Shown here: piece after piece, positions 1 to 14,748 of the stretch
Numbering within the stretch: the first letter of the stretch is position 1
How the letters are laid out: every line of letters begins with the position of its first letter
Assembly: GCA_934754975.1 (NCBI GenBank)
Contig: CAKVKI010000024.1
Location: 1 to 17,420, forward strand
Direction: 5' to 3'
From: an uncultured Alistipes sp.
Lineage (GTDB): Bacteria; Bacteroidota; Bacteroidia; Bacteroidales; Rikenellaceae
Length of the DNA stretch: 17,420 bases
Program-made: the position numbers and the translations under genes
The notes under the pieces: model-generated
Database searches by the model: none
What the model was told of the DNA's origin: nothing
Seen by the model: the letters and a program-made list of their open reading frames with translations, nothing else

Positions 1-16
1 CATTACAGACATCGCC

Positions 17-1474
17 CTATTGCAGCGACTCGGGAGCCGGAATCAGGAACAGCAATCCGATCAGCAGGATCAGACACACCGCCACGATCAGGATTATCTT
101 TCCCAGGCTCGTTTTCTTCTTTACGGGCACCACGGTCTCGTAACCGGCGAAGGCCTTGGCATCGGACTGCGCCGCCGCAGGTTTCGTCCCGCCCAGACGG
201 GCCATCTCCTGCTCCATGCGCTTCGAACGGTCGGCCGAGAGTTCGGCCTGCTTCTGCCGGCGGGCCTGCTCCGCGGCCTGCTGCTCGCGCACCTGCCGTT
301 CCTGCTCGTCCCGGGCTTCCTGCTCGCGGCGGGCCTGCTCGGCACACAGGTATTCGATATACTTTCCGGCCCGGAAAACGTCCACGAAGACAAACATCTC
401 CTCGGCGCTGTACTGCTGATCCAGTTGGATATCGTCGCGGATAAGCCGCTGCAACGCGTCGTAAACCATCGTCAGCGGTTTGGACAGATACTCCCGGCGG
501 ATCGAAGCCGACAGCTCCCCGGCGCGCTCCAGCATCGAACCTTCGAACGAATCGAAACCGCGCGCGAGGTAATAAACCGTTTCGGCCAGGCGCACGTCGT
601 CTTCCCGGTCACCGAACACGGTGCGTACGCGGTCCACGGCGGCGCTTCCCTTGGGCGATCCCGTGTTGCAGCAGGCCAGGAAGCCCCAGTAACGCTGCCA
701 GTAATTGTCGGTCAGCTCCTCCTCGTAACTCTTCACCGATCCGGCCGGATCGAGAATCGCCCGGGCGAGAAAATACCAGTATTCGACCTCGTAATTCGAC
801 GAGACTTCATGCAGTGCGGTGAAGGTTTCCAGACTTTTCAGTCCCTGTTCGCGTTCGGTCGCCGTAATCAGACGCCGCACCGCGGCATCCAGTTCGGCCC
901 GCTGCACGGAACTCAGCTCCGCCGCATTTCCGGACGGGGCGCGCTGCTGCAAAGCCCGCAGGATCGAAGCCTGCGTCCCGGCATCGATCCGAAGACGACG
1001 CGCTTCGGCGTCCAGCTGCTGTTTGCGCGCCGCATCGAACGGCCCCGGAGCCTCCATGACCCGCGCCACGAATACGCGGTACTCCTCGCGGGCCTGCTGT
1101 TCGCAGTTCTCGCAGCGCTTCGAGGTCTCGACATAATATTCCAGCGCCACCTGCCCGCCGCACTGGGGGCATACGACACTCTGGTCCATATAGATACGCT
1201 TTCCGGAAACCGCACACTCCACGATCTTGTGCGACTGGTCCTCATTGATCGTATTGTGAATCGTGATGTTCGAGGCTTCGTACTTCTCCTGCTTGCCGAT
1301 AATCGTACTTTCGTTGATCAGGTTCTTGTCGCCGACCAGCGGACCGGCCTCTCCGGTGTCGGGTTCGGACTTGGGTTTGCGTTTCACCTCCATCGTGCGG
1401 CACTCGGTACCGCACTCAAGACAGAACCGGGCGTCGTCCGCCAGTTCCGAACCGCATTTATGGCATTTTTTCAT
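17..1474 (-). CDS. Tail-anchored protein with two zinc ribbons and a coiled coil
   Basis: The 485-residue protein begins with a zinc ribbon (Cys4, Cys7, Cys18, Cys21). An Asn/Thr/Ile-rich stretch (about 48-78) follows, then a second cysteine cluster (Cys102, Cys105, Cys121, Cys124, with Cys87 nearby). The middle (about 125-385) is helical, with aromatic-rich segments that could be TPR-like, though I could not assign a family. Residues about 385-430 form a Glu/Gln/Arg-rich coiled coil. A single hydrophobic helix at about 459-478 leaves only a few residues beyond it, as in a tail-anchored membrane protein with its bulk in the cytoplasm. The start overlaps the previous stop in ATGA, so translation is probably coupled. 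A scaffold or adaptor role at the inner membrane is inference. It is the last complete gene of the operon. Confidence 0.85.
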   Translation of the reverse strand: MKKCHKCGSELADDARFCLECGTECRTMEVKRKPKSEPDTGEAGPLVGDKNLINESTIIGKQEKYEASNITIHNTINEDQSHKIVECAVSGKRIYMDQSVVCPQCGGQVALEYYVETSKRCENCEQQAREEYRVFVARVMEAPGPFDAARKQQLDAEARRLRIDAGTQASILRALQQRAPSGNAAELSSVQRAELDAAVRRLITATEREQGLKSLETFTALHEVSSNYEVEYWYFLARAILDPAGSVKSYEEELTDNYWQRYWGFLACCNTGSPKGSAAVDRVRTVFGDREDDVRLAETVYYLARGFDSFEGSMLERAGELSASIRREYLSKPLTMVYDALQRLIRDDIQLDQQYSAEEMFVFVDVFRAGKYIEYLCAEQARREQEARDEQERQVREQQAAEQARRQKQAELSADRSKRMEQEMARLGGTKPAAAQSDAKAFAGYETVVPVKKKTSLGKIILIVAVCLILLIGLLFLIPAPESLQ

Positions 1475-1758
1475 GCTTGTTCCCTGTTTTCTGTTGTTTC
1501 ATCAATATCCGTATCTTCGGTATGCACCGCCGCTTCGACCGTATCGGCCACCAGCCATCCGTGACTCATACGCCCCGTTACAACCACCTCCGAGCGGTCA
1601 TATGCAGCAAAGAACGGATCGTCGGCGGGCGGCACGCCCTCGCGGCACAGCTTCAGGACGCTCATGTCGTCGTCCCGCACCAGAAAGGCGTAGCGCCCCT
1701 CCGATTTCGATCCGGCATTCTGCAGCCGGATCAGTATTACACCTTCGTAGCGTTCCAT
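1471..1758 (-). CDS. Small OB-like conserved protein, function unknown
   Basis: This 95-residue protein lies between the SPFH protein (8-base gap) and the tail-anchored zinc-ribbon protein (ATGA overlap), which strongly supports it as a real gene. It has no signal peptide, membrane helix or cysteine pair. The core (about 1-75) alternates short hydrophobic strands with Gly turns, contains a SEGRYAFLV segment and a DDPFF motif, and ends in a V-V-V-T-G-R strand followed by a short W-containing strand. This pattern suggests a small beta-barrel of OB-fold type. The last 20 residues are acidic and Thr-rich, probably disordered. A role as partner or ligand-binding subunit of its neighbours is inference only. 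Confidence 0.75.
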   Translation of the reverse strand: MERYEGVILIRLQNAGSKSEGRYAFLVRDDDMSVLKLCREGVPPADDPFFAAYDRSEVVVTGRMSHGWLVADTVEAAVHTEDTDIDETTENREQA

Positions 1759-1766
1759 ACTCCGGT

Positions 1767-3917
1767 TTATTTGAGGTCACGCCCGCAATGGGCGCAGAAA
1801 CGGATTCCCTGAGCGGCTACCGTGCCGCAGTCGGGGCAGACGCGGCCGACGGACTGCGGGGCCTGCGGCGGCTGGGGCTTTGCCGCCCCCTGCTGGTTAT
1901 TGCGGGTGGCGTACTCGAGCGCGCTGTCCTGCGTCTTGTCCACACGGTCCTCCTGACGTTCCATACGTTCGCGGTAGCGGTCGCGCTCCTCGTCCTTGTT
2001 CTGCACGATATGTCCGGTCATCGTCGTAGCCATATCCTTCATTTCGCGCATCATCTCCAGCATGCGGTCCTCGTGACGCTGCGAATCGGCGATGCGGGCC
2101 TCGGCGGCCTGCTGCACCTGCTCGACGTTCTTCCCCGCCGAGAACGACTCGGCGAACTTCACCGCGGCCTGCGAATCGAGGTTCTCCCCGGCGGCCACGG
2201 CCATCAGCTGTTCGGCGGTCATCTGCGCCTTTTTGTCGAGGGCTTCCTGTTTCAGACGCTCCATCTCACGCTCGTGGTCCAGATCCATCTTCTTGTCCTC
2301 GCGGTTGATCTCCTTGACCTTGCGCAGGCGTTCGATCTGGGCGTTCATCTCGGCATCGTCCAGCTCCATTTCTGTTTCACGGTCGGCCCGCATCTGCTCG
2401 CGCTCTTTGGCGCGGCGGTCGTCGGAATACTCGTCCTCCCGCCTGCGGTGCGCCAGCGTCAGCTCCTGCAGCTCCAGTCCCTGACGCATCGTCTCCACGG
2501 CGATCTGACCTTCGCCCGCCGTGCGGACTTTTTCGAATTCGATTTCATCCTTCAGCTGCATGAGTTTAATCACCTGCCCGCGCTGGTAACGCCGCTCGGC
2601 GATGTCGATCCGCAGGTTCTCGACGTCCTCTTCGCGCAGCAGGCCGGTCTTTTCGATGTCGGACAAAGCCGCTTCGACCTCCTCCTCGCTCTGCGCGTCG
2701 CGGATACGCTTCTCGCGCGAAAGCACAGTGTAGAACTTATCCAGTTCGTCGTCGGCCAGCAGACGGTCTTTATTGACCTCCTGCAATCCCTGGTAAAGCT
2801 GCAGATCGCTGCGGGCATCGGCAATGGTCTGTTCGTTGGTTTCCGTCGCCAGCCGGTTGCGGAAATCGTTGGTGCGGCGCAGGAAGTCGAGTTCCTGGCT
2901 CAGGCTGCGCAGACGCTCCAGATCCTCGTTCGACGCCGCCACTTCGGCGACGCGCTCCAGCGTCAGGCCGTAGAACTGGTCGCCCGAAGCGACGATCCTT
3001 GCCGTAATCAGTTCGACGACGTCGGCGGGAACCGACGTCCCTTCGACCTCACGGTCCTGCATAACGGCCTGCACGGCGTTCTGAATCGTGGGCTGCAGCT
3101 TCTCGGCGATCTTCAGCGTCGTGGCGACGCGCTCGTCGGTGAGGAAGTACTCGGCGAAGCGGTTGAAGTCGCTGATGCGGAAAATCGCACGCAGGCCCAC
3201 CTGCAGGTCGAGCAGTTTCGTACGGACGGTCATCGGCTTGAATTCGGCCATCTCCTCGGCCGTTCCCGAACCGAAGACCAGCGAGAAGCTCTTGTCGAGC
3301 TTGAGGGTCAGCGAAAAGGCTTCGTGCCGCTTCATGCTCTCGATCACGGCGTCGAGCGAACGCTGGCGTTCGGGATCGCCGCTCTTGTCGAACTTGTCCT
3401 TCACACGGCGGCCCAGCAGGGCGTTTATCAGGAAACGGCCGCCGCCGGCAAGCGCGCCCGCCGCACCGCCCCTGCGGCTTTCGAGTATGCGCTCCAGTTC
3501 GTCGGGATCGACGAAATCGTAGATTCCTCCGTGGATCTCGGCCAGCACTTTGCCGTTGGCTTTGATATAGGCCGTGGTGCCGTCGTTCACGATCAGGCCC
3601 TGCGCCGAATCATAGCGGATAAACTCCGACTCATTGACCCGGCAGGCCACTTCGCCTTTCTGGATATTCCAGAAAATCTTCTGCTTCACGGCGGCCAGTT
3701 CACCCCCTTCGGCGGCCTGCGCTTCGGGTGCGGGCGCACTCTCCGGCGCAGTTGCGGCCGGAGCGCCGCACGTCGTGCAGAATTTGGCGTCGGGCAGCAG
3801 CGGAGCATTGCACTTTTTGCACACGCTCCCGGCAGGCTGCGCCGCAGCGGGCGTTCCGCAGGTCGTGCAGAATTTCGCACCCTCCAGGAGTTCTGAATTA
3901 CAATTCTGGCATTTCAT
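1767..3917 (-). CDS. SPFH-like (YdjI/virion-core type) protein with three zinc ribbons and a long coiled coil
   Basis: The 716-residue protein has two tandem N-terminal zinc ribbons (Cys3/6/17/20 and Cys33/36/47/50) that look like an internal duplication, and a third ribbon at the C-terminus (Cys694/697/708/711). After a Pro/Ala linker, residues about 74-310 resemble the SPFH/band-7 group that includes the stomatin-like proteins with a C-terminal zinc ribbon. Residues about 370-650 are a charged coiled coil rich in Glu, Arg, Lys and Met. There is no signal peptide or obvious membrane helix; a Gly/Ala-rich patch at about 148-165 could touch the membrane. SPFH proteins form rings or microdomains at membranes, so this is the likely oligomeric platform of the operon (inference). 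It sits 10 bases after the C25-like gene. Confidence 0.8.
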   Translation of the reverse strand: MKCQNCNSELLEGAKFCTTCGTPAAAQPAGSVCKKCNAPLLPDAKFCTTCGAPAATAPESAPAPEAQAAEGGELAAVKQKIFWNIQKGEVACRVNESEFIRYDSAQGLIVNDGTTAYIKANGKVLAEIHGGIYDFVDPDELERILESRRGGAAGALAGGGRFLINALLGRRVKDKFDKSGDPERQRSLDAVIESMKRHEAFSLTLKLDKSFSLVFGSGTAEEMAEFKPMTVRTKLLDLQVGLRAIFRISDFNRFAEYFLTDERVATTLKIAEKLQPTIQNAVQAVMQDREVEGTSVPADVVELITARIVASGDQFYGLTLERVAEVAASNEDLERLRSLSQELDFLRRTNDFRNRLATETNEQTIADARSDLQLYQGLQEVNKDRLLADDELDKFYTVLSREKRIRDAQSEEEVEAALSDIEKTGLLREEDVENLRIDIAERRYQRGQVIKLMQLKDEIEFEKVRTAGEGQIAVETMRQGLELQELTLAHRRREDEYSDDRRAKEREQMRADRETEMELDDAEMNAQIERLRKVKEINREDKKMDLDHEREMERLKQEALDKKAQMTAEQLMAVAAGENLDSQAAVKFAESFSAGKNVEQVQQAAEARIADSQRHEDRMLEMMREMKDMATTMTGHIVQNKDEERDRYRERMERQEDRVDKTQDSALEYATRNNQQGAAKPQPPQAPQSVGRVCPDCGTVAAQGIRFCAHCGRDLK

Positions 3918-3927
3918 AGTAGTCGTT

Positions 3928-5784
3928 CTATTTAGTTGATATTATTGATTTCACACTTCCTTTCAAATCGGCCGTCGCCGTGTGGCAGCTCTTGATCGTT
4001 CCGTCCGTTTCAACATAGTTGAAGGCGTAGAATTCATCGCCGTTGCCGTATCTGAGCCGGGTGACGGTCGATAGTTTGCGCGGCTCCACGCCCAGCTGTT
4101 CGTAAAGCTGTTTATCGACCGTGGCGCGTATGGCCAGCAGGTTGCGGTCCACGGCGTTGCGCACCTGATCGAGTACCGACGCCGGAGCGGCCTCGTACAC
4201 GCACTTGCGTTCGACCACGGCGTTCACCGGGCCTTTGGCCAGCGCCTTAACCTCGCGCAGCTGAACCTTCGCTTCACCCCGCCGCGCCCCGACATAGAGG
4301 AACGGATCGCCGAAAAGGTTGAACTCGACGATCGTAAGCGCCTGATGCGGCGTGAAATAGCCGTCGTTATAGTCGAAGAAGCTCTGACGGGCCAGGTAGA
4401 ACGCTTCGCCCGCGCTGTACCCTTCGAGCAGCTTGGACATATAGACATTGGTCAGGCGGTCGGCGTTGTTAAGATCGGCCGTCGAACTGCTCTGCGACGC
4501 GCCCCACGCGATGCGCGACGAGCCGAGGTAAAGCAATGTCTTGTCGCCCATGGCGGCGAGCAGCATCGTCTCGCCGCGGCCGTAATCCTGGAATTTGGCT
4601 CCGTAGCAGGCTTCGGTCACCACCACGTTCGCCGCCTGGGCCGAAGCCAGCTGGCGCGGCGTGATCGCTTCGTAGCACTGCTGCCGGTAGGAGGCATAGA
4701 AACTGCACGCCGTCGGCGCATCGCTTCCGTGCAGGTTGAAGTAATACAGGTCGGCGTTCCGGTCGAAAACCTTATCGACGATCGACCGTTCGACGCAGGG
4801 GCTGATAAAAAGATTCCGGGAGTAAATGCGCTCGTCCAGCCGCTCGTCGCCCCGGTAAAGTTTGTGACGGTGGAACGGTTCGCTGACCGAAGCCGAGGCC
4901 GAAAGCCACGTCAGGTCGGTCTGGCCGTACACCCGCCCGATACCGAGCGTGCCGGGAGCCTTCGCCGCACGGCGCAGGTACCCTGCCAGATCGTCCAGCG
5001 AAGCGTCCTCCGCAAGCGGCAGGCGGCCTACATGGAAATACTGTTCGTACTGGAAAATCTCCGCTGACCCCAGCATGGGATAGGTCTTCTCGCCCAGCAG
5101 ATAGGCATACGGAATATCGGTGTCGATGTCCGTATCGCTGTAATCGGGATCGGAGATATACTGCGGCACCACCGGCATCGGGATTACGTCGCCGCCGCCG
5201 ATGATGAACAGATAGTTGGTTTCCTCCTCGGCCGTACTGCGCCCGAAACGGAAATAGTCGGCCAGCAGATATCCGTGTCCGACCCACGAATCCGACGGAG
5301 AAAGGCTCACTCGGCGGTCGTCACCCGCTTCGGGGTTGATGAAAGCGTAATCCGCGGCGTCGATGATATGGTAGCGGATACCGTGCGCGAGCGACGCCTC
5401 GGCATAAGCCGCCAGCAGTTTGCGCACCACGCCGGCATCGGTGCCGAATTTGCGGGAGAGCGCCCGCAGGTTGGTAAAAAGAACTCCTTCGGCCATACGC
5501 CCGCCGGACTCCTTCGAATCGGAGGTCTGTGCGTCGCCGGGCACGGCAGGAACCGGAGCCGTGCCGGGCCCAGCCGGGGCCACTGGAGTTGCCGAAACGG
5601 TCGGTGCGGCCGCAGAAGCCGGAACCGCCGGGGCGGACTGGACCGGCGGAACCGGAGCAGGTGAAGCCGGAGCGGACTGGCCGGCGGAAGCCGCCGGAAC
5701 CGATGCGGCAGGCAGTTTGGCGCCGCAGTTCCAGCAGAACAGGGTGTTATCCTCGCACTTTTTTCCACAATTGGGACAAAACAT
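3928..5784 (-). CDS. Cytoplasmic zinc-ribbon C25 (gingipain/caspase-fold) peptidase-like protein
   Basis: The 618-residue protein starts with a zinc ribbon (Cys3, Cys6, Cys17, Cys20), then a Pro/Ala/Val-rich linker to about residue 95. From about 135 to 500 it follows the layout of peptidase family C25. A YLFIIGGGDVIP strand appears at about 191-202. His352 lies in an NLHGSD motif and Cys392 in TEACYGA; the 40-residue spacing suits the caspase/gingipain His-Cys dyad. The typical FGDP segment falls at 491-494. Residues 500-618 form an additional domain of unknown type. Unlike gingipains it has no signal peptide or secretion domain, so it should act in the cytoplasm. The substrate is unknown. 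The neighbours, an SPFH platform and other ribbon proteins, suggest it is recruited to a membrane complex. Peptidase activity is inferred from the dyad only. Confidence 0.85.
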   Translation of the reverse strand: MFCPNCGKKCEDNTLFCWNCGAKLPAASVPAASAGQSAPASPAPVPPVQSAPAVPASAAAPTVSATPVAPAGPGTAPVPAVPGDAQTSDSKESGGRMAEGVLFTNLRALSRKFGTDAGVVRKLLAAYAEASLAHGIRYHIIDAADYAFINPEAGDDRRVSLSPSDSWVGHGYLLADYFRFGRSTAEEETNYLFIIGGGDVIPMPVVPQYISDPDYSDTDIDTDIPYAYLLGEKTYPMLGSAEIFQYEQYFHVGRLPLAEDASLDDLAGYLRRAAKAPGTLGIGRVYGQTDLTWLSASASVSEPFHRHKLYRGDERLDERIYSRNLFISPCVERSIVDKVFDRNADLYYFNLHGSDAPTACSFYASYRQQCYEAITPRQLASAQAANVVVTEACYGAKFQDYGRGETMLLAAMGDKTLLYLGSSRIAWGASQSSSTADLNNADRLTNVYMSKLLEGYSAGEAFYLARQSFFDYNDGYFTPHQALTIVEFNLFGDPFLYVGARRGEAKVQLREVKALAKGPVNAVVERKCVYEAAPASVLDQVRNAVDRNLLAIRATVDKQLYEQLGVEPRKLSTVTRLRYGNGDEFYAFNYVETDGTIKSCHTATADLKGSVKSIISTK

Positions 5785-5804
5785 CGCGAATCGGGTTTTA
5801 AGGG

Positions 5805-7376
5805 TTAGTCAATCTTGACGACCTGCGCCGCGACCCGTTTCAGGTCGGGCATCGCGTCGCCCACGTCGGCCCCCACGTAAGTCGGGTCGCAGACGACATA
5901 GCGTTTGGCGCCTATCTGCATGTAGTCGCCTTTCACATCGCCGTTGAAGCAGACCGCCGTGGCGATATGCTCCGGGTAATAAAGCAGGACGACATCCAGC
6001 CCGAGCAGGTCCCTGACCAACCGTGCGAAGAGGATCGAACGGTCCTCGCAATCGCTGTAAGGGTAATGGAACATCTCTTCGGCGAAAAGCGTGCGTTCGA
6101 CGCCGAACTGGGCCTCGTCGGTCTTATAGGGAAACGCCCGGTGCAGGTAGTGCAGCAGCAGGTTGGCCGCGTCGTACCCGCCTTTGCCCGCCAGCGCGCT
6201 GCGCAGGGTCGGATAAAGCTGGTCGCGCACCGCCGAAGTCAGCTCGGTCGCCGCATAAATGCTCCAGCAGCAGGGCGGATAGTCGGTATAGAAATCCATC
6301 AGGTTCCGGTTCACCGTCACAGTCGTCGTGAGCGATCCTTCCCCGCACTTCCGCACGGCGGGCTGTCCGGATTTCTGCGCCAGCACGGGCGGCACGGGCA
6401 TCGCCAGCGACAGCGGACGTTCGCCGGGAATCTTGAAATTACAGATGTTGTACGATGCGGCCCGCGCCATATCGTCCAGCAGGTAGAAGGTCTGTCCGTC
6501 GATTTTGAAATAGGGTTTGGCATAGACCTGATCGTCGAGCGCCAGCAACAGGCAGAGGCGGTTGCCGCCCCGTGCCAGACGCACTTTGCAGCCCGCTTCG
6601 GCCATCAGGAACGACTGCAGCACGACCGATTCGGCCGATTGTTCGCCCAAGAACCCGTCGCTCAGCGTACGTACCAGCGCATAATAGCCCCAGTCGTTGA
6701 GCCGCAGTTGTTCTTTCAGCTCGCGGCACTCCTTCGCCACCGGATCGTACGAACCGCCCGCAACGCGTTCCCACGCATCGGCGACGCTGTTTTCCTGTAA
6801 CGACGCGAGCCTGAAACGATGTTTTGCGGCCAGCGACACCGAGCAGTCCGTGCCGTAGAACGTAAAACGGCAGGGGCGCGAAGTCACGACGGCGGGAGCC
6901 GGGCCGCCCTTCCCGGCAGGCGGCGTACGGCCCTCGTCCTTTTTCACGTCGGGGACTTTCGGCGCCGCAGGGAGATCCGGCACTGCCGGTTCGACAGACT
7001 CCTTCGGAGCATCAGGAACTTCCGGCACGGCAGGCGTCTGCGGAGCCGCAGGAGCCTCCGGGACGGCGCGAGCAGGCGCTTCGACCACCTCTTTATAGGG
7101 AATCCGGTCCTGCGTGGGCGCCGCCGATTCGTCGGGCCGCTTCACGACGGGCTGTTCCGGCTCCTTCCGTTCGGGGAGAGGCACCGGCGCTTCGGAGCGG
7201 AAAGCCTCCCAGCGCTTGCGCATGAAGTCGGCGCACGCTTTGCGGTAGTTGTCCTGAAACTCGGCGTAAGCCTGCCTGCGGCGGGCCTGATACTCGAGCA
7301 GGGCTTCGCGCCGCGACTGCGCCGCAAGGGGCACAGCGAAAAGTAGCGACAACAACAGAATCAGGTAGCGTTTCAT
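5805..7376 (-). CDS. Exported transglutaminase-like (papain-fold) protein
   Basis: The reading frame opens at 7436, but I chose the ATG at 7376 because it begins a clean signal peptide (MKRYLILLLSLLFAVPLAAQ). This gives 523 residues. After cleavage come a basic helical segment with many Arg, Tyr and Ala, a long Pro/Ala/Val/Glu-rich linker, a central beta-rich domain, and a C-terminal transglutaminase-like core. The core shows Cys443 in SDCEDR, His470 in PEHIA and Asp497 in CDPTY, in the usual Cys-His-Asp order. Bacterial proteins of this class are often peptidases or inactive scaffolds, so the reaction cannot be fixed. It is expected in the periplasm or outside the cell. An 84-base gap with a strong hairpin separates it from the upstream lipoprotein gene; the C25-like gene follows 20 bases downstream. 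Confidence 0.85.
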   Translation of the reverse strand: MKRYLILLLSLLFAVPLAAQSRREALLEYQARRRQAYAEFQDNYRKACADFMRKRWEAFRSEAPVPLPERKEPEQPVVKRPDESAAPTQDRIPYKEVVEAPARAVPEAPAAPQTPAVPEVPDAPKESVEPAVPDLPAAPKVPDVKKDEGRTPPAGKGGPAPAVVTSRPCRFTFYGTDCSVSLAAKHRFRLASLQENSVADAWERVAGGSYDPVAKECRELKEQLRLNDWGYYALVRTLSDGFLGEQSAESVVLQSFLMAEAGCKVRLARGGNRLCLLLALDDQVYAKPYFKIDGQTFYLLDDMARAASYNICNFKIPGERPLSLAMPVPPVLAQKSGQPAVRKCGEGSLTTTVTVNRNLMDFYTDYPPCCWSIYAATELTSAVRDQLYPTLRSALAGKGGYDAANLLLHYLHRAFPYKTDEAQFGVERTLFAEEMFHYPYSDCEDRSILFARLVRDLLGLDVVLLYYPEHIATAVCFNGDVKGDYMQIGAKRYVVCDPTYVGADVGDAMPDLKRVAAQVVKID

Positions 7377-7399
7377 AGACGGATCGGTTACGGATAAGA

Positions 7400-7434
7400 G
7401 ACGGCGGCTTCCCTCCTGCGAGGGGAGCGCCGTC
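7400..7434 (-). other. Intergenic hairpin, possible attenuator or mRNA-processing structure
   Basis: GACGGC (7400-7405) pairs with GCCGTC (7429-7434), and inner CT/CCCTC and GAGGG/AG segments extend the stem around a four-base loop. No T-run follows on the minus strand, so it is not a classical terminator. It lies in the second-largest gap inside the operon, just upstream of the transglutaminase-like gene. Confidence 0.5.
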
Positions 7435-7460
7435 AATCAGACTATAATATCGGCCGGCTG

Positions 7461-8033
7461 CTATTGTGCAAACGCCGCCATCTGCTCTTCGAAGATCTTC
7501 TTGAACTGAGCGCGGTCGAATTCCAGGTTGAGCTTGGCGTCTTTGGCGATCGCATCCTCCACGGCGGCTTCGAGAGCGGCTTTGGGAAGCTGCATGCAGA
7601 CATAGCAGCGCATCGAACCGTTGTCCTGACGGAACATCTTCTCCTCGACGATCTGCACGTCGCGCAGCTGCTGGTTCACGGCCGTATAGGCCAGCTCCTG
7701 GTACTGCGACTTATGCTCGGCCGAGATGCCCGTATCCTGATTTTTCACATAATTTTCGATAACCATCTTCACATCGGCCTGAATGGCGGCGGCCAAGTCC
7801 TGACGGCAGTTCTGCATGGCGATCTTCTGCGCCGTGCTGCGCTCGGCGCTCACGCCGTTCTGCACGGCACGGTAATATTCGGCATTGCTGCGGTACTGCG
7901 GTCCGCTCAGCGGCATGGCCTCTTCGACCATGCCAGCAGGGGCGGCGGGTCCGGTGGCCTTTTTCGAAGAACTGCACGACACGGCGCCGGCAGCGAGTAC
8001 GAGAGCGATTGCTCCAATGAGGGTTCTTTTCAT
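7461..8033 (-). CDS. LPP20-like lipoprotein
   Basis: The 190-residue protein has a lipoprotein signal ending at Cys20 (AVSC), followed by Ser/Lys residues rather than the acidic stretch that directs Bacteroidota lipoproteins to the surface. It is therefore probably anchored facing the periplasm. The mature part contains a helix with regularly spaced Ala residues (about 60-100), then a strand-rich part with MRCYVCMQLPKAAL, and a charged helix at the end. This helix-strand order resembles the LPP20 domain shared by Helicobacter Lpp20 and the flagellar outer-membrane lipoprotein FlgP; I am unsure of the homology. It starts 8 bases after an exported protein that also looks LPP20-like, so the two may form one complex. 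Confidence 0.8.
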   Translation of the reverse strand: MKRTLIGAIALVLAAGAVSCSSSKKATGPAAPAGMVEEAMPLSGPQYRSNAEYYRAVQNGVSAERSTAQKIAMQNCRQDLAAAIQADVKMVIENYVKNQDTGISAEHKSQYQELAYTAVNQQLRDVQIVEEKMFRQDNGSMRCYVCMQLPKAALEAAVEDAIAKDAKLNLEFDRAQFKKIFEEQMAAFAQ

Positions 8034-8041
8034 CTTTTCGG

Positions 8042-9319
8042 TTATTTAATAGTAAGTTTGTAAGGCAGTGTGAATTTGATCTCCGTGGTTTTCTTATCCG
8101 CGGGATTATAGATACCGAGACTTCCTTTGACGACGTCCAGTTCGTTCATCGAGCGGGCCAGTGCGGCCGACGTTTCGAAACTCAGGGTCCGTTCGCCTTG
8201 CGTGATCCGGGCGGGTTCGACCTTCTCGGCGGCAAAGCGCGCGCCGTCGGCGGGATTCCAGAACACAAGTTCGCGCACCTCGGCCTGTGCGCCGTTCACG
8301 CGCAGCTGGATGGCGCCGCGCAGCAGGCTGCCGGCCTGCTCGAAGCGGACGACGCCTTTCGGAAGTACGGCGACCTTGCCTTCGGCAGGATCGAAATAGA
8401 TCGTCCGCGACACGCGGGCGCCGCCGAACAGGTACGTAAGTTCGATCTTATTGACATCGGCCGGCGATGCGTATTCGGGATTATAGGTCAGCAGATAGAG
8501 GTCGTCCCCGTAAGGCTTGACGTCCATTCCGAGCGCAGACTCGCTCTGCAGGCGCGGCTGCCGGGCGGTCACGGCGCGGCGGCCGCTGAGCCGCAGCGAA
8601 TAGACGCAGGCGCCCGGCGTCTCGGACTCGACTTGGATCGAAAGCCCGTTGCAGAGTGCCAGGTAGTTACGTTTCAGGGTTTCGACCGCTCCTTTACGGG
8701 TGGCGTCGAAGAAATAGTCGTACAGTCCGTCGAGTTCATTCACGTTCTGCTGGATGCGGTCGAGGTCGGTGATCGTTTCAAGTTCGCTGCGCAGACGCTC
8801 GTACTCGGCCTGCTTGGCGTCGTCGATGGCCAGGAACGTCTCGATCAACTGCCGCCGCGCCGTCTCCGGGAAGGGATAGAGTACCGAATATTCGTAACGG
8901 TAACTCTTCGTCTTCTTGCTGTACACCCGTTCCCAATAAATCGCCTCGGCGTTCGAGAGGGTGATATTATTCAGGTAAGGCAGTTTCCCGGCTTCGGTCA
9001 TCAGCACCGAGGAGTAATCGTTCATTACGCTGACCAGCTGGTCGCGCGTAACCTGCCGCGTGGTCATCTTCTCGGCGGACGAGATGTTGACCGCCACGGC
9101 ATTGACGATGTACTGCCGGATCGAAGCCATGCACTTGTCCGAAGCGGCGGCAAGGGTCTCCCCCACCTCCGTGACGGCGAAATGCGACGGATCGGATTTC
9201 CCGATCCAGTCGGGTTTGCGCTTGCTGCTCGACTCGACGACCTTGTCCTTCTGGGCAAAAGCCCCGGAAGAGATACAGCATGCCGACAACAGCAGCGCGA
9301 AAGTAAGTAAACGCTTCAT
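8042..9319 (-). CDS. Exported LPP20-like protein with beta-rich C-terminus
   Basis: The 425-residue protein has a signal peptide. The best type I site is after AFA at residue 22, but LSAC at 11-14 could also be read as a lipobox. The segment from about residue 36 (KPDWIG, then a VTEVGETLAAASDKCMA helix) resembles the LPP20/FlgT-N pattern, in which a PDW motif precedes a helix of regularly spaced Ala. A helical section (about 155-220) follows, and the rest is beta-rich, with an R-L-S-G-R segment. No catalytic motif is visible. It lies 7 bases after the zinc-ribbon membrane protein gene and 8 bases before the lipoprotein gene. It probably belongs to a periplasmic or outer-membrane assembly (inference). 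Confidence 0.8.
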   Translation of the reverse strand: MKRLLTFALLLSACCISSGAFAQKDKVVESSSKRKPDWIGKSDPSHFAVTEVGETLAAASDKCMASIRQYIVNAVAVNISSAEKMTTRQVTRDQLVSVMNDYSSVLMTEAGKLPYLNNITLSNAEAIYWERVYSKKTKSYRYEYSVLYPFPETARRQLIETFLAIDDAKQAEYERLRSELETITDLDRIQQNVNELDGLYDYFFDATRKGAVETLKRNYLALCNGLSIQVESETPGACVYSLRLSGRRAVTARQPRLQSESALGMDVKPYGDDLYLLTYNPEYASPADVNKIELTYLFGGARVSRTIYFDPAEGKVAVLPKGVVRFEQAGSLLRGAIQLRVNGAQAEVRELVFWNPADGARFAAEKVEPARITQGERTLSFETSAALARSMNELDVVKGSLGIYNPADKKTTEIKFTLPYKLTIK

Positions 9320-9326
9320 CGGATTG

Positions 9327-10253
9327 TCATTTTAGGGATTTTACCTTCCGCGTATCGGAATCGTAACGCAGTTTCACCTTGCCCGTAAAAGCGCCGAGCG
9401 CCTCCGCGTCGTTATGCGTCTTGTAATGGCGGGCTATGAGCAGGGCGCAATCGACGTCGCCCATGTTTCCCTGGCTGTGCGCGAAGAAGAACTCCTCGGC
9501 CGCCGCGCTTTCGCCGGCATCGAGCATGGCATGCACCACGCTCAGCCGCAGATCTTTGTCGCCGTTCTCGTCATCGTCGGCCGATGCGAGGTAACCATCC
9601 CGCAGTTTGATCCATTCGGGCTGCGCGGCATAAGCCGCTTCGGCCCTGCGGGCGGCATGGTTCCGCACCGCCAGCGCACCGACGCCCACACAGCACAGCG
9701 CCAGCACGACAGACGCGATCAGGATCACCTTTTTGCGGTTGCGGGCATGAGCCTCGGCCTGCCCGGCAAGGGCGTCGTCCAGCCGCAGTTCCATCGCGTC
9801 GAGCCGGGCCATTACGTCGGCATTGTCCGCGAAACGCTCCCGCACCGAAGCGGCGTCCTCGGCGAAGACCCGCGCGGCGGCGCGTACGACCACCTCACCA
9901 GCGCTAAGCCGCTGTCTTCCCCGCATCAGCGCAACCACCAGCAGGATCAGTGCGGCGACGGCCAGCAGGTAGAAAAAATTAGCCCCGGTAAGCACGCCCG
10001 AGAGCAGGCAGAAAGCCAGCGCAACACCGCAAAGCAGGGGCGTCATCTTACGGGCCGTCTCACCCAATGCGGGCATCGGGACGGTATCCAGCCCAGCCAG
10101 CCCCTCTTCGAGACTGGCGAGCATCAGGCAGGGGTCGGCTTCGACCCCGGCGGTAATGTCATTGACCACGGCTTCGACGTAATCGGCGCCGCAGGCGGGA
10201 CAGAGGTTCTGCGAATCGGACATCCGGGCGCCGCAGACAGGACAGGTTTTCAT
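9327..10253 (-). CDS. Zinc-ribbon membrane protein with three helices
   Basis: The 308-residue protein begins with a zinc ribbon (Cys4, Cys7, Cys18, Cys21). It has a hydrophobic pair at about 72-88 and 92-110, a soluble helical segment (about 115-172), a third membrane helix at about 175-196 and a C-terminal soluble region of about 110 residues. With the ribbon in the cytoplasm, three crossings place the C-terminal part in the periplasm, so it is the one member that could link the ribbon proteins to the exported ones (inference). The tail is Ala- and Glu-rich and resembles a short tetratricopeptide-like helix set. I recognise no named family. Gaps of 33 and 7 bases tie it to the operon. Confidence 0.8.
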   Translation of the reverse strand: MKTCPVCGARMSDSQNLCPACGADYVEAVVNDITAGVEADPCLMLASLEEGLAGLDTVPMPALGETARKMTPLLCGVALAFCLLSGVLTGANFFYLLAVAALILLVVALMRGRQRLSAGEVVVRAAARVFAEDAASVRERFADNADVMARLDAMELRLDDALAGQAEAHARNRKKVILIASVVLALCCVGVGALAVRNHAARRAEAAYAAQPEWIKLRDGYLASADDDENGDKDLRLSVVHAMLDAGESAAAEEFFFAHSQGNMGDVDCALLIARHYKTHNDAEALGAFTGKVKLRYDSDTRKVKSLK

Positions 10254-10286
10254 CGTAATCCTAAGTTAGTTCCGACATCGGTTCGA

Positions 10287-11237
10287 TCAGAGTCCGAAGA
10301 GCCATTCGCCCAGCGACTTGCCTTTCTTCTCATAGGAATCGGCTTTGGTCTGCTTCAGCGTCTTGGCTTCGGCAGTCGCCTCCTGCTGCGTACGTTCGCG
10401 CAGCTGCTCGGCGTCCATCCTGCGCAGCTCCTGCTCCAGTGCGGCGGCTTCGGCGGCCGCGGCCTGCGCGTCGAGACGGTTCAGGAAGCGGACCACCTCG
10501 CCGTAATTGGGGCTTACCGGGTTGCACGAGCGGCACAAATCCAGCGCCGCGTCGATATTGCCCTGGCGGACCAGGATATCGGCTTCGGCGACGGCCTGCT
10601 TCACTTCGTTTTCAAGCAGTTTGTTGTAAACCTGCACCTTGAGGTCGGAGACGGCTGCGTATTCATCGACGTTCTCCGGAATCACCGCCAGCGCGGCCAT
10701 CGCATCCTCGTACTCCCCGCGGGCGACGAGCGAGTTGATCTTGGAGAGGATCTTCGGCATCTGGCGCGTATAGTAGTCGGCGATGCTCTGCTGCACGTCC
10801 TTGATCATCTTGGCGAAACGTACGTCGTTCACGTTCACCTTGTTGATGAGCGAACGCATGCAGGCCTCCCCGCTCTTGCCGTTGGCCTGGAGCGATACGG
10901 TCTGGCTGGCGAAAACGGTATTTTCGAAGAGGTTCTTGACCGAAAGGGTCAGGTCGGCACGCACGACATGCACGGTCGTCATGCCCGTATCGACCGTGCC
11001 GTCGTCGGTGACGGTAAGCGTCGGCGTGACGACGAAAAGCCCCGCCGCGTCGGCCATGCCGTTGCGGGTGATGATCTTGCTGATCTTATTGCGGAGGGCC
11101 GCAGCGTTGCTCTCGCCGAGCTGCGCGGCCGTGTCTTCGTCGATATAGGCCGAGAGGTCGATTACGGTCTGCGCCCGGAGCGACAGCGCGCCCAGCGCGA
11201 ACGCCGCGAAGAACGATAATTTACGAAGCAGATTCAT
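10287..11237 (-). CDS. Exported CsgG/TolB-N-like protein with helical repeats
   Basis: The 316-residue protein has a signal peptide ending near LRA (about residue 22). Residues about 35-150 alternate strands and helices (LRNKISKIITRNGM followed by a FVVTPTLTV strand), in the manner of the CsgG/TolB N-terminal fold that opens many periplasmic assembly proteins; this is a weak match by eye. Residues about 150-260 look like tetratricopeptide-type helical hairpins, including an AEADILVRQGNIDAALDLC repeat unit. Residues about 262-300 form an Ala/Glu/Gln-rich coiled coil, and the end is basic. It begins 10 bases after the preceding gene. It is probably a periplasmic partner of the CsgG-like and FlgT-like proteins upstream. 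Confidence 0.75.
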   Translation of the reverse strand: MNLLRKLSFFAAFALGALSLRAQTVIDLSAYIDEDTAAQLGESNAAALRNKISKIITRNGMADAAGLFVVTPTLTVTDDGTVDTGMTTVHVVRADLTLSVKNLFENTVFASQTVSLQANGKSGEACMRSLINKVNVNDVRFAKMIKDVQQSIADYYTRQMPKILSKINSLVARGEYEDAMAALAVIPENVDEYAAVSDLKVQVYNKLLENEVKQAVAEADILVRQGNIDAALDLCRSCNPVSPNYGEVVRFLNRLDAQAAAAEAAALEQELRRMDAEQLRERTQQEATAEAKTLKQTKADSYEKKGKSLGEWLFGL

Positions 11238-11247
11238 GGTCTGTTGT

Positions 11248-12513
11248 TTAGTAGATGATTACGTCGATGGAATTACCCGTGATCGTACGCGACACGGAGA
11301 GGTTCAGCCCCTTGAGGTACTGGTAGAGCGCCAGCGCGAAGTCATTGACGTCGGACTGCATGCCGTCCTCCATGGAGTTGTCCACAAAGATATCGCTGAA
11401 GGCCAGCAGCGTACTCGTACGGCCCTGCGTATGGTATTTGCCGTTCTTGGCGTGGCGTTTGACCCACGAAACGAGAATGTCCGAGAGCGGCATGATGTTG
11501 TTGATTTCGGTGTCCATGTTGATCGCCGAGCCGGGATCGATCGTGAAACGCACGGCCACGCTCTGGCCGGTCGAGATCTTGGTCGCCATACGGGTCGAAA
11601 TCTGTTTCATGAAGTCGCCGATCATCGCTTTGGCCATGACGCCGCACAGCACGTCGGCCGTGGTGCGCTTGCGGCCCGAGATTTCGGATTTCGTGGCCAG
11701 CGTATTGCCCGTGGCGACCTCGATCGCCTGCAGGGTCAGCGAAACGCGCACGCCGCCGTCGTTCACGTCCTGATTGATATCGACGCTCACAGAAACGTCG
11801 GCTCCGGAATTGGCCAGAATCGCATCGTCGAGCGACATGCCGTCGCCCATACGCACCTGATAGGTATTGGCGTTATTCAGCGAGGTGAGCAGGTCCTTGG
11901 TCTCGACGCCCTCGCCGATGAAGCCTTCGTTCACCTTCGAAATCGCCATGCGCATGTCCGAATTGTTGCGGATCGCCTCTTCATAGGATTCGTCCCCTTT
12001 GCGGAAAGGCACTACCATGACCGTCGGCATGGCGATCAGCTCCTGCGTCTCGGAGAGCGCGATATCGGAAGCGCTGCGCCCGATGACGCCGTTGTTGATC
12101 AGGTCCCGTTCGAGCGACTCGGTATAGAGGTCGATCGTCGCGAAGACCTGTATGTTTTTATCGGCCGTCTTGTTGGTCCGGTCAGCAATCGTGCAGCTGC
12201 GGATGAAATTGGCGTAACGGGTCGTGCCGAGCAGCGTGCCGACATACTGCGAAGCGTCGGCCGAAGGTTTGTAGCCCAGCAGGGGCTTGTTGTCGTTCAG
12301 GCCGTCTATACCGTTATATAAATAGGTGTATATCACAGATTTTTTCGCCATTTCGGTTGCCTCCTTCTTCGTACGGGCGATTCCGGAACACTCCAGCGTC
12401 GCAATTTTTCCGGTCGTTTTCTTCAGGATGGCATCGGTCGTGTAATTCTGGGCCGCCGCCGGGATCAGGGCGCAAAGAACGACGATAACTGACAATACGG
12501 ACTTCCTAAACAT
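11248..12513 (-). CDS. Exported FlgT-N/DUF6175-like protein
   Basis: The 421-residue protein has a clear signal peptide (cleavage after PAAA, about residue 21). The first mature domain carries IATLECSGIARTKKEATEMA, a strand followed by a helix with spaced Ala residues, as in the N-terminal domain of the flagellar protein FlgT. The middle (about 165-300) has a VMVVPF strand, an ADVSVSVDI strand and a long helix, resembling a TolB/CsgG-type domain. From memory it may belong to DUF6175, a Bacteroidota family of unknown function; I could not check this. No catalytic residues stand out. A 92-base gap with a hairpin separates it from the CsgG-like gene upstream. Periplasmic location is expected. 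Confidence 0.8.
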   Translation of the reverse strand: MFRKSVLSVIVVLCALIPAAAQNYTTDAILKKTTGKIATLECSGIARTKKEATEMAKKSVIYTYLYNGIDGLNDNKPLLGYKPSADASQYVGTLLGTTRYANFIRSCTIADRTNKTADKNIQVFATIDLYTESLERDLINNGVIGRSASDIALSETQELIAMPTVMVVPFRKGDESYEEAIRNNSDMRMAISKVNEGFIGEGVETKDLLTSLNNANTYQVRMGDGMSLDDAILANSGADVSVSVDINQDVNDGGVRVSLTLQAIEVATGNTLATKSEISGRKRTTADVLCGVMAKAMIGDFMKQISTRMATKISTGQSVAVRFTIDPGSAINMDTEINNIMPLSDILVSWVKRHAKNGKYHTQGRTSTLLAFSDIFVDNSMEDGMQSDVNDFALALYQYLKGLNLSVSRTITGNSIDVIIY

Positions 12514-12549
12514 TTGATCTTATTTTTTAAGTTTGAACGGATAAAGCCC

Positions 12550-12572
12550 CCGGGACGCCGTCGGCACCCCGG
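12550..12572 (-). other. Intergenic GC-rich hairpin between first and second operon genes
   Basis: CCGGG (12550-12554) pairs with CCCGG (12568-12572), and GCC (12557-12559) pairs with GGC (12563-12565) around a three-base loop, with a two-base mismatch between the stems. No T-run follows on the minus strand, so it is more likely a processing or stabilising structure, or a leaky attenuator, than a true terminator. Confidence 0.45.
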
Positions 12573-12605
12573 AGACTGTATGGAACAGGATATTTTTCGA
12601 AACGC

Positions 12606-13502
12606 TTATGCACCTACCAGACCTTTGAGGAATCCGCCTGCGGCCGTTCCCTGCTTATCGACGATGACGATCAGCTTCTCGCCGCTGTTGAACTTCTCCT
12701 TGATGGCCTCCTCGCCCGCAGCGACCTGGCATTTGGTAACGCCGTCCATCACCTCGACGGCGACGAGCGTACCGATCTCCGATTTGGTCACCTTCGGACC
12801 GATCTTACGCTCGGTGTATACTTTGAAGCGGGTCTTCTTGGCAACGCCCATCTCCGAGCCGCCCGAAATGTAGAGGTCCTTCACGCGGCCTTTCTTGTCG
12901 GCTTCGCCCAGCTCCAGGATGTAGGTTTCGAACTTGAAGTGGTTGTCGACGAATTTGATCATCGCCTTGCGCAGGTCCTTCATCGCGTCGTTGAACGCGC
13001 CGTCCTTCGAATCGGCATCGACACCCATCACGGCGACGGTCTCCGATCCGACCATCGCGCCGTCGATGATATTGTACACCTTCAGCGCCAGCGTCACCTC
13101 GGCTTTGTTGTACATCTTGCCGTCGATGTCCGATTTGAAGGTCGAAAACGAGACGTTGTTGGCCTGTCCGATAACGACTTTCTTCGCTCCCAGCGCCTTG
13201 TAGGCGGCTTCGCTTTCAGACTTCCAGTTGGCGTCGTTCACCACGTCCTCGGCATTGCGGTCGGCATAGAGCTTCGACAGCGTTTCGTCGGTCAGGGCAT
13301 CGACGATGTGAAAACGGCCCCGGTCGGAAAAGCCCGACAGAACGGCAGCGCGCATGTTATCGCACGCAGCCTGGCTGACGGCATCGGTGCAGGCAAAAGG
13401 GTTGATGATTACGGTCTCTTTCGAGGGATCCTCCTGCGCGGCAGCGCCCAGGGTTACAAACACGGCAGCGGCCGCCAGAACAGTTCTGAATACGTTTTTC
13501 AT
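12606..13502 (-). CDS. CsgG-like exported protein with FlgT-C-like end
   Basis: The 298-residue protein has a signal peptide cleaved after GAAA (about residue 22). The N-terminal domain resembles the CsgG/TolB-N fold: a VIINPF strand, a helix, then a GRFHIVDAL strand, and KALGAKKVVIGQA, which matches the GA-x-x-VVIG strand typical of CsgG. The C-terminal third (about 205-290) has a KGRVKDLYISGG strand pair, a RFKVYTER strand, an IGTLVAVEVMDG strand and a closing KLIVIVD strand. This is the pattern of the FlgT C-terminal barrel, a fusion-like architecture. It has no lipobox, unlike CsgG itself. It is the first gene of the operon, about 100 bases after the terminator of the upstream RNA gene. 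Confidence 0.8.
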   Translation of the reverse strand: MKNVFRTVLAAAAVFVTLGAAAQEDPSKETVIINPFACTDAVSQAACDNMRAAVLSGFSDRGRFHIVDALTDETLSKLYADRNAEDVVNDANWKSESEAAYKALGAKKVVIGQANNVSFSTFKSDIDGKMYNKAEVTLALKVYNIIDGAMVGSETVAVMGVDADSKDGAFNDAMKDLRKAMIKFVDNHFKFETYILELGEADKKGRVKDLYISGGSEMGVAKKTRFKVYTERKIGPKVTKSEIGTLVAVEVMDGVTKCQVAAGEEAIKEKFNSGEKLIVIVDKQGTAAGGFLKGLVGA

Positions 13503-13530
13503 ATGTTTAAGTAAGGGTTAGTTGTTCATT

Positions 13531-13548
13531 GTGTCGATGGGGCGACAC
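13531..13548 (-). other. Short hairpin in leader of the CsgG-like gene
   Basis: GTGTCG (13531-13536) pairs perfectly with CGACAC (13543-13548) around a six-base loop, 29-46 bases upstream of the start codon of the CsgG-like gene. It may stabilise the 5' end of the mRNA or tune translation; either role is inference. Confidence 0.4.
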
Positions 13549-13599
13549 GTCGGTTCCGGCCCCCGCACCAAAAGGGTCCGATATAACTCGTTATTAAAC

Positions 13600-13690
13600 A
13601 AAAAAAAGGAAAGCGTGGTGCTGAATGCTTATTTTAGAGTGGGAGGTTCTTGCAAAACCTGAAGAATAAAATAAGCAACAGTCCCACGCT
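13600..13690 (-). terminator. Terminator of the small RNA / possible attenuator
   Basis: Eight A residues on the plus strand (13600-13607) give a U8 tail on the minus transcript. Directly before it is a three-part stem: 13612-13618 with 13684-13690 (7 pairs), 13626-13636 with 13667-13677 (11 perfect pairs) and 13644-13648 with 13656-13660, with a seven-base loop. The same U-run also follows the closing stem of the rod fold. It either ends the small RNA or attenuates read-through into the operon. Confidence 0.65.
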
Positions 13691-13805
13691 CTAAATCCGA
13701 AAACGGACAGAACGTGAAGAAATGCCGGCTTATTCTCTCCTTCGTAATAACTTGCAAGATTTACCACTCGAGAATAAACTTACACTTTCCGTGTTAGTCA
13801 ATATG
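13600..13805 (-). ncRNA. Candidate 6S-like structured small RNA
   Basis: A promoter-like element and a U8 terminator bracket about 205 bases with no coding potential. Read on the minus strand the RNA folds into a long rod. The ends close with 13782-13790 against 13608-13616 (9 pairs). Then 13764-13779 pairs with 13627-13642 (14 of 16), 13752-13759 with 13648-13655 (8 of 8), and 13730-13737 with 13662-13669 (8 pairs). The tip is a hairpin of 13709-13716 with 13685-13692, capped by UCCG-UUUU-CGGA. Between the last two stems is a bubble of about 13/15 bases, and between the two 8-base stems one of 14/6. End-to-end pairing, a total rod of 183 bases and large internal bubbles are hallmarks of 6S RNA, which binds RNA polymerase by mimicking open promoters. 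Primary sequence similarity was not tested. An alternative local fold (13612-13690) would make it a leader attenuator. Confidence 0.6.
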
Positions 13806-13811
13806 TTACTA

Positions 13812-13842
13812 CAAATGTAAAAAACATATTCGGAAAATACAA
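13812..13842 (-). promoter_or_regulatory. Bacteroidota-type promoter for the small RNA
   Basis: On the minus strand TACATTTG (13819 to 13812) matches the -7 consensus TAnnTTTG, and TTG (13842 to 13840) lies 20 bases upstream as the -33 element. The predicted transcription start is near 13805, about 15 bases before the closing stem of the RNA rod. Confidence 0.6.
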
Positions 13843-13871
13843 CACCGACACTTCTTTTTTGGGACTGTTGC

Positions 13872-14050
13872 GAGTACAATTTACGACAAAACATTTAAAT
13901 CGGCAATATTGATTCCAAAATATCTTATTTCATATTGCGGGAACAGGCCCTTGCGGAGAGCGTTCCATCCAATCAATTGATTTACAATAATACACAAACG
14001 GCAAAATATAATTTTCATATTCCGCCCGAGGAAACGGCAGCGTTGAGAGA
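13872..14050. other. AT-rich intergenic stretch, no gene seen
   Basis: This stretch lies between the upstream edge of the small RNA promoter and the terminator of the membrane-protein gene. Open frames here overlap the membrane-protein gene in the wrong frame or lack support. I see no RNA gene and no repeat. Confidence 0.6.
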
Positions 14051-14081
14051 CAAGAAAACCGGACCGAAAAAACCGGCCCGG
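14051..14081 (-). terminator. Intrinsic terminator of the membrane-protein gene
   Basis: On the minus strand an 8-base stem (14081-14074 with 14066-14059, one G-U pair) and a seven-base loop are followed by TTTTCTTG. It lies about 20 bases after the stop codon of the membrane-protein gene. Confidence 0.75.
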
Positions 14082-14102
14082 CGCGCATATCCGAGGACAA
14101 TT

Positions 14103-14612
14103 TTACATGGTAAGGAGTACCAATGCGGCCATCGGCACGACGGCCCACCAAAGCGTGCGCCGCTCTCCCGCAGGCATCAGCCGGGCAAGGGCCTCCGAGC
14201 GTTCCAGGTAACAGAGGAATCCGAACCACAGACCGCCCCAAGCCAGATTCAGCGCTTCGGCACGCACCAATACGGCATAACCGCCCGATGCTTCCGGATC
14301 ATAACCGGTAAACAACGGGGCAATCGCGGCAACGCCATGCACCAGCATCTGCAAACCGGCATACCAGCGAACCAAAGGCATGCCATAGGATTTTCGCAGC
14401 GCCAGACAGCAGAACAGCCCCACAGGCAGCAATGCCGCGGCAAGCCCCAGCAGCCGCATCCCTGCCGTCCAGCCGTCCAGCCACAGATTCCCGTCCACGC
14501 ACTGCACCAACAGCGTCAAACACCATTCGCCCAGGCGGGTTACGCCGAAAGCGCCGAACAGCCACACGGGTCCCGGCAGTTCATTGAGATTTTGGAGGAA
14601 AGGGGATTTCAT
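14103..14612 (-). CDS. Small four-helix membrane protein, function unknown
   Basis: The 169-residue protein has four hydrophobic helices, at about 15-37, 49-71, 83-103 and 115-135, with a possible fifth at the very C-terminus (about 152-169). A cluster of basic and acidic residues lies between the fourth and fifth. There is no cleavable signal peptide and no enzyme motif; Trp and Leu are abundant. I do not recognise the family; small DoxX-like or DUF membrane proteins have similar size and layout, but nothing specific supports them. It has its own promoter box 26 bases upstream and its own terminator downstream, so it is probably a single-gene unit unrelated to either neighbouring operon. Confidence 0.75.
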   Translation of the reverse strand: MKSPFLQNLNELPGPVWLFGAFGVTRLGEWCLTLLVQCVDGNLWLDGWTAGMRLLGLAAALLPVGLFCCLALRKSYGMPLVRWYAGLQMLVHGVAAIAPLFTGYDPEASGGYAVLVRAEALNLAWGGLWFGFLCYLERSEALARLMPAGERRTLWWAVVPMAALVLLTM

Positions 14613-14637
14613 CGGGAATAAAGTTTGCGGTACGCCG

Positions 14638-14645
14638 CAAAGATA
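14638..14645 (-). promoter_or_regulatory. Promoter -7 box of the membrane-protein gene
   Basis: On the minus strand TATCTTTG (14645 to 14638), followed by C, matches the TAnnTTTG consensus 26 bases upstream of the start codon. The -33 region (about 14664) is weak, with CTG in place of TTG. The predicted leader is under 20 bases. Confidence 0.6.
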
Positions 14646-14708
14646 GTAAAAAATCAGGTCATTCAGTAGACTTAAAGCCGTGTCTCAATCTACGTTATTC
14701 CCAGGCGG

Positions 14709-14748
14709 AAAAAAGGCCCGTGCATCTCCAAAAGACGATGCACGGGCC
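14709..14748 (-). terminator. Strong intrinsic terminator of the GH18 operon
   Basis: GGCCCGTGCATC (14715-14726) and GATGCACGGGCC (14737-14748) form a perfect 12-base stem with a ten-base loop. On the minus strand it is followed by six T (14714-14709). It lies about 60 bases after the stop codon of the endoglycosidase gene and ends that operon. Confidence 0.9.

Follow-up and report, generated by a model that had tools for sequence, protein, structure and literature searches.

The nearest experimental precedent for the locus described here comes from Bacillus subtilis, where, according to the accessible portion of PMC8581546, YdjI together with YdjG/H connects PspA and an SPFH protein with the membrane, and wall synthesis is misplaced when either YdjG or YdjH is lost. 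The zinc-ribbon and band-7 parts of YdjI and YdjG/H are described in the available text of PMC11237479, and an ESCRT link of the same system in that of PMC10936438. We analyzed an 11-gene locus in a stretch of 17,420 nucleotides from an uncultured Alistipes sp. (contig CAKVKI010000024.1, positions 1 to 17,420), hereafter the window, in which a peptidase of family C25 is encoded next to an SPFH protein and close to a set of exported-like proteins. The locus consists of two linked modules. The core module contains the C25 peptidase g8, the SPFH protein g9, the OB-like protein g10 and the zinc-ribbon/transmembrane protein g11; the envelope module contains an LpoB-like protein (g1), a DUF6175 protein (g2), LPP20-type proteins and a wall enzyme, which is transglutaminase-like in Alistipes and, at most of the other loci, a lytic transglycosylase. 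Our leading interpretation, to which we give somewhat less than an even chance, is an accessory system of envelope-gated proteolysis, in which a clan-CD protease would be held on an SPFH scaffold and gated by an exchangeable envelope module.

The 11 open reading frames (ORFs) all lie on the minus strand at 17–13502, with intergenic gaps of −4 to 92 bp, in line with the tight spacing that the original prediction had described, and were named in transcription order from g1 (12606–13502) to g11 (17–1474). The next ORF taken as a gene (14103–14612) begins 600 bp beyond g1. Compartments were called by a crude hydropathy test for signal-peptide-like N-termini, run on relatives of each protein; u1 denotes an LPP20-type protein that takes the g5 position in other families, and u2 the lytic transglycosylase. 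By this test g1, g2, g3, g5/u1, g6 and g7/u2 are placed outside, with signal-peptide-like N-termini in 40/42 relatives of g1, 45/47 of g2, 11/11 of g3, 7/8 of g5, 30/31 of u1, 42/42 of g6, 7/7 of g7 and 29/32 of u2. The core proteins g8 (1/55), g9 (0/53) and g10 (2/46) are placed inside. The g4 protein of the window was also flagged, and we read its hydrophobic segment as transmembrane instead. The two compartments originally proposed are thus borne out at the level of prediction, and so is the presence of several zinc-ribbon proteins, since g4 (barely), g8, g9 and g11 exceed the Pfam cut-off.

The g8 protein (3928–5784) carries a zinc ribbon at its N-terminus and matches the C25 family PF01364 at 42.4 bits (cut-off 23, E = 6.9e-11). 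His352 and Cys393 do not vary in an alignment of 25 sequences, made up of the window protein plus 24 relatives chosen among 120 listed, and from the position of these two residues and general knowledge we take them to be the catalytic pair. Among the closest hits are proteins that match g8 at 90% identity over the whole length. By profile and by its conserved His and Cys, g8 is a C25-family peptidase, with peptidase activity predicted. Family C25 belongs to clan CD, the caspase clan, and gingipain-like C25 peptidases are secreted. The g8 protein resembles the latter in its Pfam match and invariant residues and differs from them in its zinc ribbon and in the near absence of signal-peptide-like N-termini, which agrees with the cytoplasmic location first suggested for it.

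The g9 protein (1767–3917) has a long helical region and zinc ribbons at both ends. An SPFH platform had been proposed here; the Pfam scan gives no SPFH match for g9, and it is the predicted fold that sustains the assignment. A Foldseek search of the PDB with the AlphaFold2 model (predicted local distance difference test score 71, predicted template modelling score 0.43) gave SPFH proteins for all of the top 18 rows (lowest E = 2.4e-6), with HflK/C-FtsH and QmcA-NfeD structures among the best matches. A Flavobacterium relative of g9 scored 18.3 bits against the SPFH profile (cut-off 24), and g9 was aligned by hhalign to a Band_7_1 protein at 87.9%. As modelled, g9 has an SPFH/band 7 fold. The closest relatives of the window are from Alistipes, g9 being 95–96% identical to Alistipes proteins and 97% identical to its best match. 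The remaining core genes encode a small OB-like barrel with a GSKSEG motif (g10, 1471–1758) and a zinc-ribbon protein with a C-terminal transmembrane segment (g11, 17–1474). Such a segment was seen by hydropathy in 32/39 g11 and 14/15 u3 proteins, and in several g11 relatives it is followed by Sel1 repeats.

Set beside the described systems, the locus shares with YdjFGHI, as far as the accessible text on that system goes, an SPFH protein with a zinc ribbon (g9), a zinc-ribbon transmembrane partner (g11) and a link to wall synthesis. It differs in that no PspA or TPM family is found among the window Pfam matches, and a C25 peptidase and an exported module are present instead. The fold matches of g9 include two SPFH-protease pairs, HflKC-FtsH and QmcA with the NfeD-family protein YbbJ. 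The SPFH scaffold is common to these and our locus, whereas the partner of g9 is a zinc-ribbon C25 peptidase rather than an AAA+ or NfeD-type protein; no AAA+ metalloprotease of the FtsH type occurs among the window Pfam matches. NTP-dependent conflict systems are similar in that the terms caspase-like and zinc ribbon appear in the accessible part of PMC7159879; the systems in that part are centred on GTPases, with no mention of C25 and with SPFH only in a reference. By analogy, the best reading is that the system would work like YdjGHI-PspA or HflKC-FtsH while belonging to neither.

A scan built from the C25 alignment gave 64 loci, and with L071 a total of 65 were mapped. One of the two scan patterns contains the active-site Cys, so that motif conservation in the scanned loci is partly by construction. 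Remote C25 proteins for which no other core gene was found (L054, L055, L056, L058, L059, L061, L062, and L064) were excluded, leaving 57 loci, 53 of Bacteroidales (L071 is counted here because it was drawn from that order) and 4 from elsewhere. The SPFH gene g9 was found in 53 of the 57, and in 52 it directly follows g8, with a median gap of 13 bp. Immediately upstream of g8 lies u2 in 28/57 loci and g7 in 7/57. In 47 of the 53 Bacteroidales loci g1 and/or g2 are present on the strand of the core, upstream of it in 15 and downstream in 32. L012, L017, L051, and L052 have g2 with no g1 detected, and the envelope part of L034, L039, and L049 is g1-g2 only. The six Bacteroidales loci without g1 or g2 are L008, L018, L032, L033, and L037, with contig ends beside the core, and L048, where no envelope module was seen in 9.3 kb downstream or 2.0 kb upstream; L018 retains u1-g6. 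The envelope module was likewise not seen in the DNA examined around Flavobacterium L046, Treponema L053, Ferrovum L060, or Methylococcaceae L063; the last two are short Pseudomonadota contigs, on which the SPFH gene is not shown either. Large Sel1, WG, LRR_5 or MORN repeat proteins are encoded near L048, L053, and L060, at none of which an envelope module was detected.

The envelope genes also stand apart from the core. Combinations of g1, g2, g3, g5/u1, and g6 occur without it in L068, L072, L073, L074, L075, and L078, and 12 of 14 regions read carry DUF6175 genes without an adjoining core, including L069, whose core lies elsewhere in the genome. The genes g4 and g7 were each found in 7/64 loci, the Alistipes/Rikenellaceae ones. 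That the eleven genes form a single unit, as had been supposed, is not supported; of the one apparatus proposed, what holds is the linkage of g1/g2 to the core in Bacteroidales.

Genome counts point the same way. Among 149 genomes drawn from the order (centre genome included), C25 was found in 3 and the SPFH gene g9 in the identical 3 (hypergeometric 1.9e-6, with genomes treated as independent and the centre genome included), g1 in 7 and DUF6175 in 37, in both cases including all 3 with C25. The envelope module is thus commoner than the core and often alone. Independent occurrence in related genomes, which the original prediction had named as evidence against it, was found for DUF6175 (34/149 genomes without C25) and not for C25 and SPFH, which keep to the same 3. 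C25 was further detected in 5/121 genus genomes (centre included), in 4/6 genomes of the genus of the Butyricimonas genome, in 1/296 genomes of the phylum draw and in 1/59 genomes of the genus of the Treponema genome, the single genome being the centre itself in the last two cases. The Treponema metagenome-assembled genome that holds L053 (G009) has a second C25 relative on another contig.

In a C25 tree (56 rows, quick search) the upstream and downstream module orders require at least two changes, and in a g2 tree of 60 rows four changes are needed to account for which copies are linked and which unlinked, a count that does not tell gain from loss. L012, L017, L051, and L052 group with L029 in a starred clade of the C25 tree, and their g2 proteins fall among unlinked copies on a distant branch, where the g2 of L029 is not found. 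The simplest reading of these sequences is that the envelope module was probably exchanged in this clade while the core stayed. Both trees carry long-branch warnings, and single placements are unsure. With at least two changes of module order and one clade with a different envelope module, linkage has been kept through rearrangement.

The exported-like proteins were examined one by one. For g1 the window protein has no Pfam match, and the LpoB-like label comes from a Butyricimonas relative (PF13036, 3.7e-6, 27.4 bits, cut-off 22.3); relatives of g1 are present in 42/64 loci. The FlgT-like protein of the original prediction survives as an FlgT_C trace in the same relative (7.6e-4, below the cut-off). 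The g2 protein (11248–12513, 46/64 loci) is a DUF6175 protein (PF19672, 1.5e-46); its alignment to g1 is weak (hhalign 66%, E = 5.5e-5). A CsgG-like protein had been claimed, and we rejected a CsgG or curli secretion system, as neither CsgG nor curli genes appear among the window Pfam matches. In L077, L079, and L081 the DUF6175-type gene is split, its N-terminal part forming two small genes beside the C-terminal part. The g3 protein (10287–11237) shows weak TPR similarity below the cut-off and is found in 11/64 core loci and 10/12 unlinked regions; g4 (9327–10253) combines a zinc ribbon just over the cut-off with transmembrane segments. The g5 protein (8042–9319, 8/64 loci) has no Pfam match, and u1 of Butyricimonas, in the same slot, passes the LPP20 cut-off (9.9e-10). 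The g6 protein (7461–8033) is an LPP20-like lipoprotein that scores 22.2 bits (cut-off 25.9), with a lipobox-like sequence in 33/42 relatives; the LPP20-like assignment thus holds above threshold for the Butyricimonas protein and below it for g6. For g7 (5805–7376; the ATG at 7376 is a more likely start than the TTG at 7436) there was no Pfam match and no relevant NCBIfam match. C442, H469 and D496 (numbered on window 5805–7373) are invariant in 8/8 sequences, and from general knowledge of such residues we take them to be a Cys-His-Asp triad; the transglutaminase-like label is kept on these residues. The u2 protein is an exported-like, MltC-like lytic transglycosylase (SLT 1.8e-23, MltC_N 1.2e-8, one member scanned).

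In the gated-proteolysis scheme, g9 would form a ring or cage at the cytoplasmic face of the inner membrane, anchored to it by g11, plus g4 in Alistipes. The g8 peptidase may be docked and restrained there by the zinc ribbons of g8, g9, g11, and g4 and by the OB-like g10. Outside, g1, g2, the LPP20-type g5/g6 and the wall enzyme (g7 or lytic transglycosylase) would monitor or remodel the junction of peptidoglycan and outer membrane. Envelope damage could be signalled through g11/g4 and release g8, which would then cleave a cytoplasmic or membrane substrate and bring about repair or growth arrest. Several points weigh against this scheme. The g10 gene was not found in 11/57 loci and g11/u3 not in 6/57, some of these at contig ends. 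The g9 protein has no transmembrane segment in the window, and a transmembrane-like stretch was seen in only 5/53 relatives. Because the envelope module usually occurs without the core, g8 cannot be required for the task of that module itself. Among the window Pfam matches there is no regulator family, and the long-branch warning of the g2 tree touches L012 and its group.

The same gene content could also describe a scaffold for cell-wall growth or remodelling, in which the SPFH platform positions wall enzymes and LpoB-like activators and g8 trims or matures a partner, with neither stress gating nor killing. The predicted export of LpoB-like g1, u2, and g7 and the position of u2 or g7 beside g8 in 35/57 loci fit such a scaffold, as does the displaced wall synthesis after loss of YdjG/H in the accessible portion of PMC8581546. 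A patchy presence (5/121 genus and 3/149 order genomes, centre included) is odd for a growth function, and no wall proteins were seen around the cores of other phyla in the DNA examined; we consider this explanation unlikely. Patchiness, together with a caspase-clan peptidase and exchangeable modules that include the repeat proteins near L048, L053, and L060, would fit a cell-death or anti-phage system, in which an SPFH-held caspase-like protease is triggered by a damaged envelope and kills or arrests the cell. Yet a PADLOC 2.0 scan covering 10 of the 11 proteins, all but g10, gave no match better than an E of 0.0014 (g6), and no phage record carrying g8 was found. Matches to 50 PADLOC models were obtained with the 118 flank proteins, some of them strong, and a type I specificity subunit is one of the models matched; among the 25 models listed, mostly candidate models, one is matched by two flank proteins and the rest by one. 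No Pfam family occurs in more than 3/118 flank proteins. The defence role put forward in the original prediction is unsupported, and a killing or arresting system appears quite unlikely to us.

It may also be that two unrelated modules adjoin by chance or co-transfer. The envelope module does stand alone in most DUF6175 genomes, and the core alone in L046 and L053. Against this stand the linkage on one strand in 47/53 Bacteroidales loci, at least two order changes, one apparent module exchange, and flanks in which no other Pfam family is shared by more than 3/118 proteins, and we regard this explanation as improbable.

Upstream of g1 lies a structured leader RNA with a promoter-like 5′ end (13596–13841, minus strand), which matches covariance model R1 at 216 bits, the model having been built with the window copy included. 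The g1 gene begins 93 nt past the element. The leader fold gave a z of −4.25 (run on 13500–13806). The motif TACATTTG at 13812–13819 occurs at chance number in the window, yet is kept in most aligned copies. The RNA family is multi-copy, ∼200 nt long, with a promoter-like TAnnTTTG start and a U-run end, and copies were recorded at L002:424-655, L073:11126-11358, L085-L123, and L125-L144. It was detected in 36/61 genus genomes by blastn and in 38/149 order genomes by the covariance model (E 1e-4), with 1–8 copies each, a lower bound given that at most 14 candidates were scored per genome. Across the 66 matches, pairing is kept in 93.7% of pair cells and covariation is 0.548, vs. 0.220 in shuffles (0/500) and 0.06–0.09 when slid; the structure itself was used to fit this alignment, and 4/66 are weak second matches over counted copies on the opposite strand. 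In an unfitted 21-copy alignment, 22/57 predicted pairs are changed on both sides. For the 61 copies placed (the window left out), the downstream gene was taken to be the longest ORF with a start no more than 600 nt downstream; we found it on the same strand in 53/61 copies, in 38 of them also signal-peptide-like, and on the opposite strand in 6, with 2 unjudged; in 18 copies it starts 30–46 nt after the element. A copy in L108 (G029) lies 258 nt upstream of a DUF6175 gene, and the copy in L073 (G119) precedes g1-g2-g3, separated from them by a single exported-like gene. No Rfam family was matched at the gathering score in the window and 16 further loci, which gave chance-level rows only (E up to 10). 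The leader belongs to a dispersed, covarying RNA family without an Rfam match. The accessible part of PMC8040213 reports thousands of candidate structured RNAs, some of them palindromic in Bacteroidetes, and this family may be among them.

Beyond the leader, further minus-strand ORFs of the window include a hydrophobic-looking 169-residue ORF without a Pfam family (14103–14612), a GH18-like protein below the Pfam cut-off (14810–15814) and a second GH18-like protein just above it with a BT_3987-like N-terminal domain (15947–17413).

Returning to envelope-gated proteolysis, it could be one instance of a general bacterial platform, in which an SPFH-caged caspase would convert damage to the membrane or the wall into either regulated proteolysis or the death of the cell, an extension that we think rather doubtful. 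Such a platform might combine a conserved effector core (C25 peptidase, SPFH cage, and OB-like adaptor) with exchangeable sensors, a division we put forward with similar doubt; that the sensors are the envelope/wall module in Bacteroidales and large Sel1/WG/LRR/MORN proteins elsewhere is equally speculative. If the platform exists, analogues of prohibitin-type scaffolds and of caspases would meet in one machine. AAA+ and NfeD-type proteins are already known as partners of SPFH scaffolds, and so is PspA; in the open PMC literature we found no paper that places a C25 peptidase as an SPFH partner. With a caspase-clan peptidase in that position, membrane microdomains would gain a class of protease new to them, and through the link of this peptidase to LpoB-like and lytic proteins Bacteroidales would have a route, open to experimental test, by which damage to the envelope leads to proteolysis.

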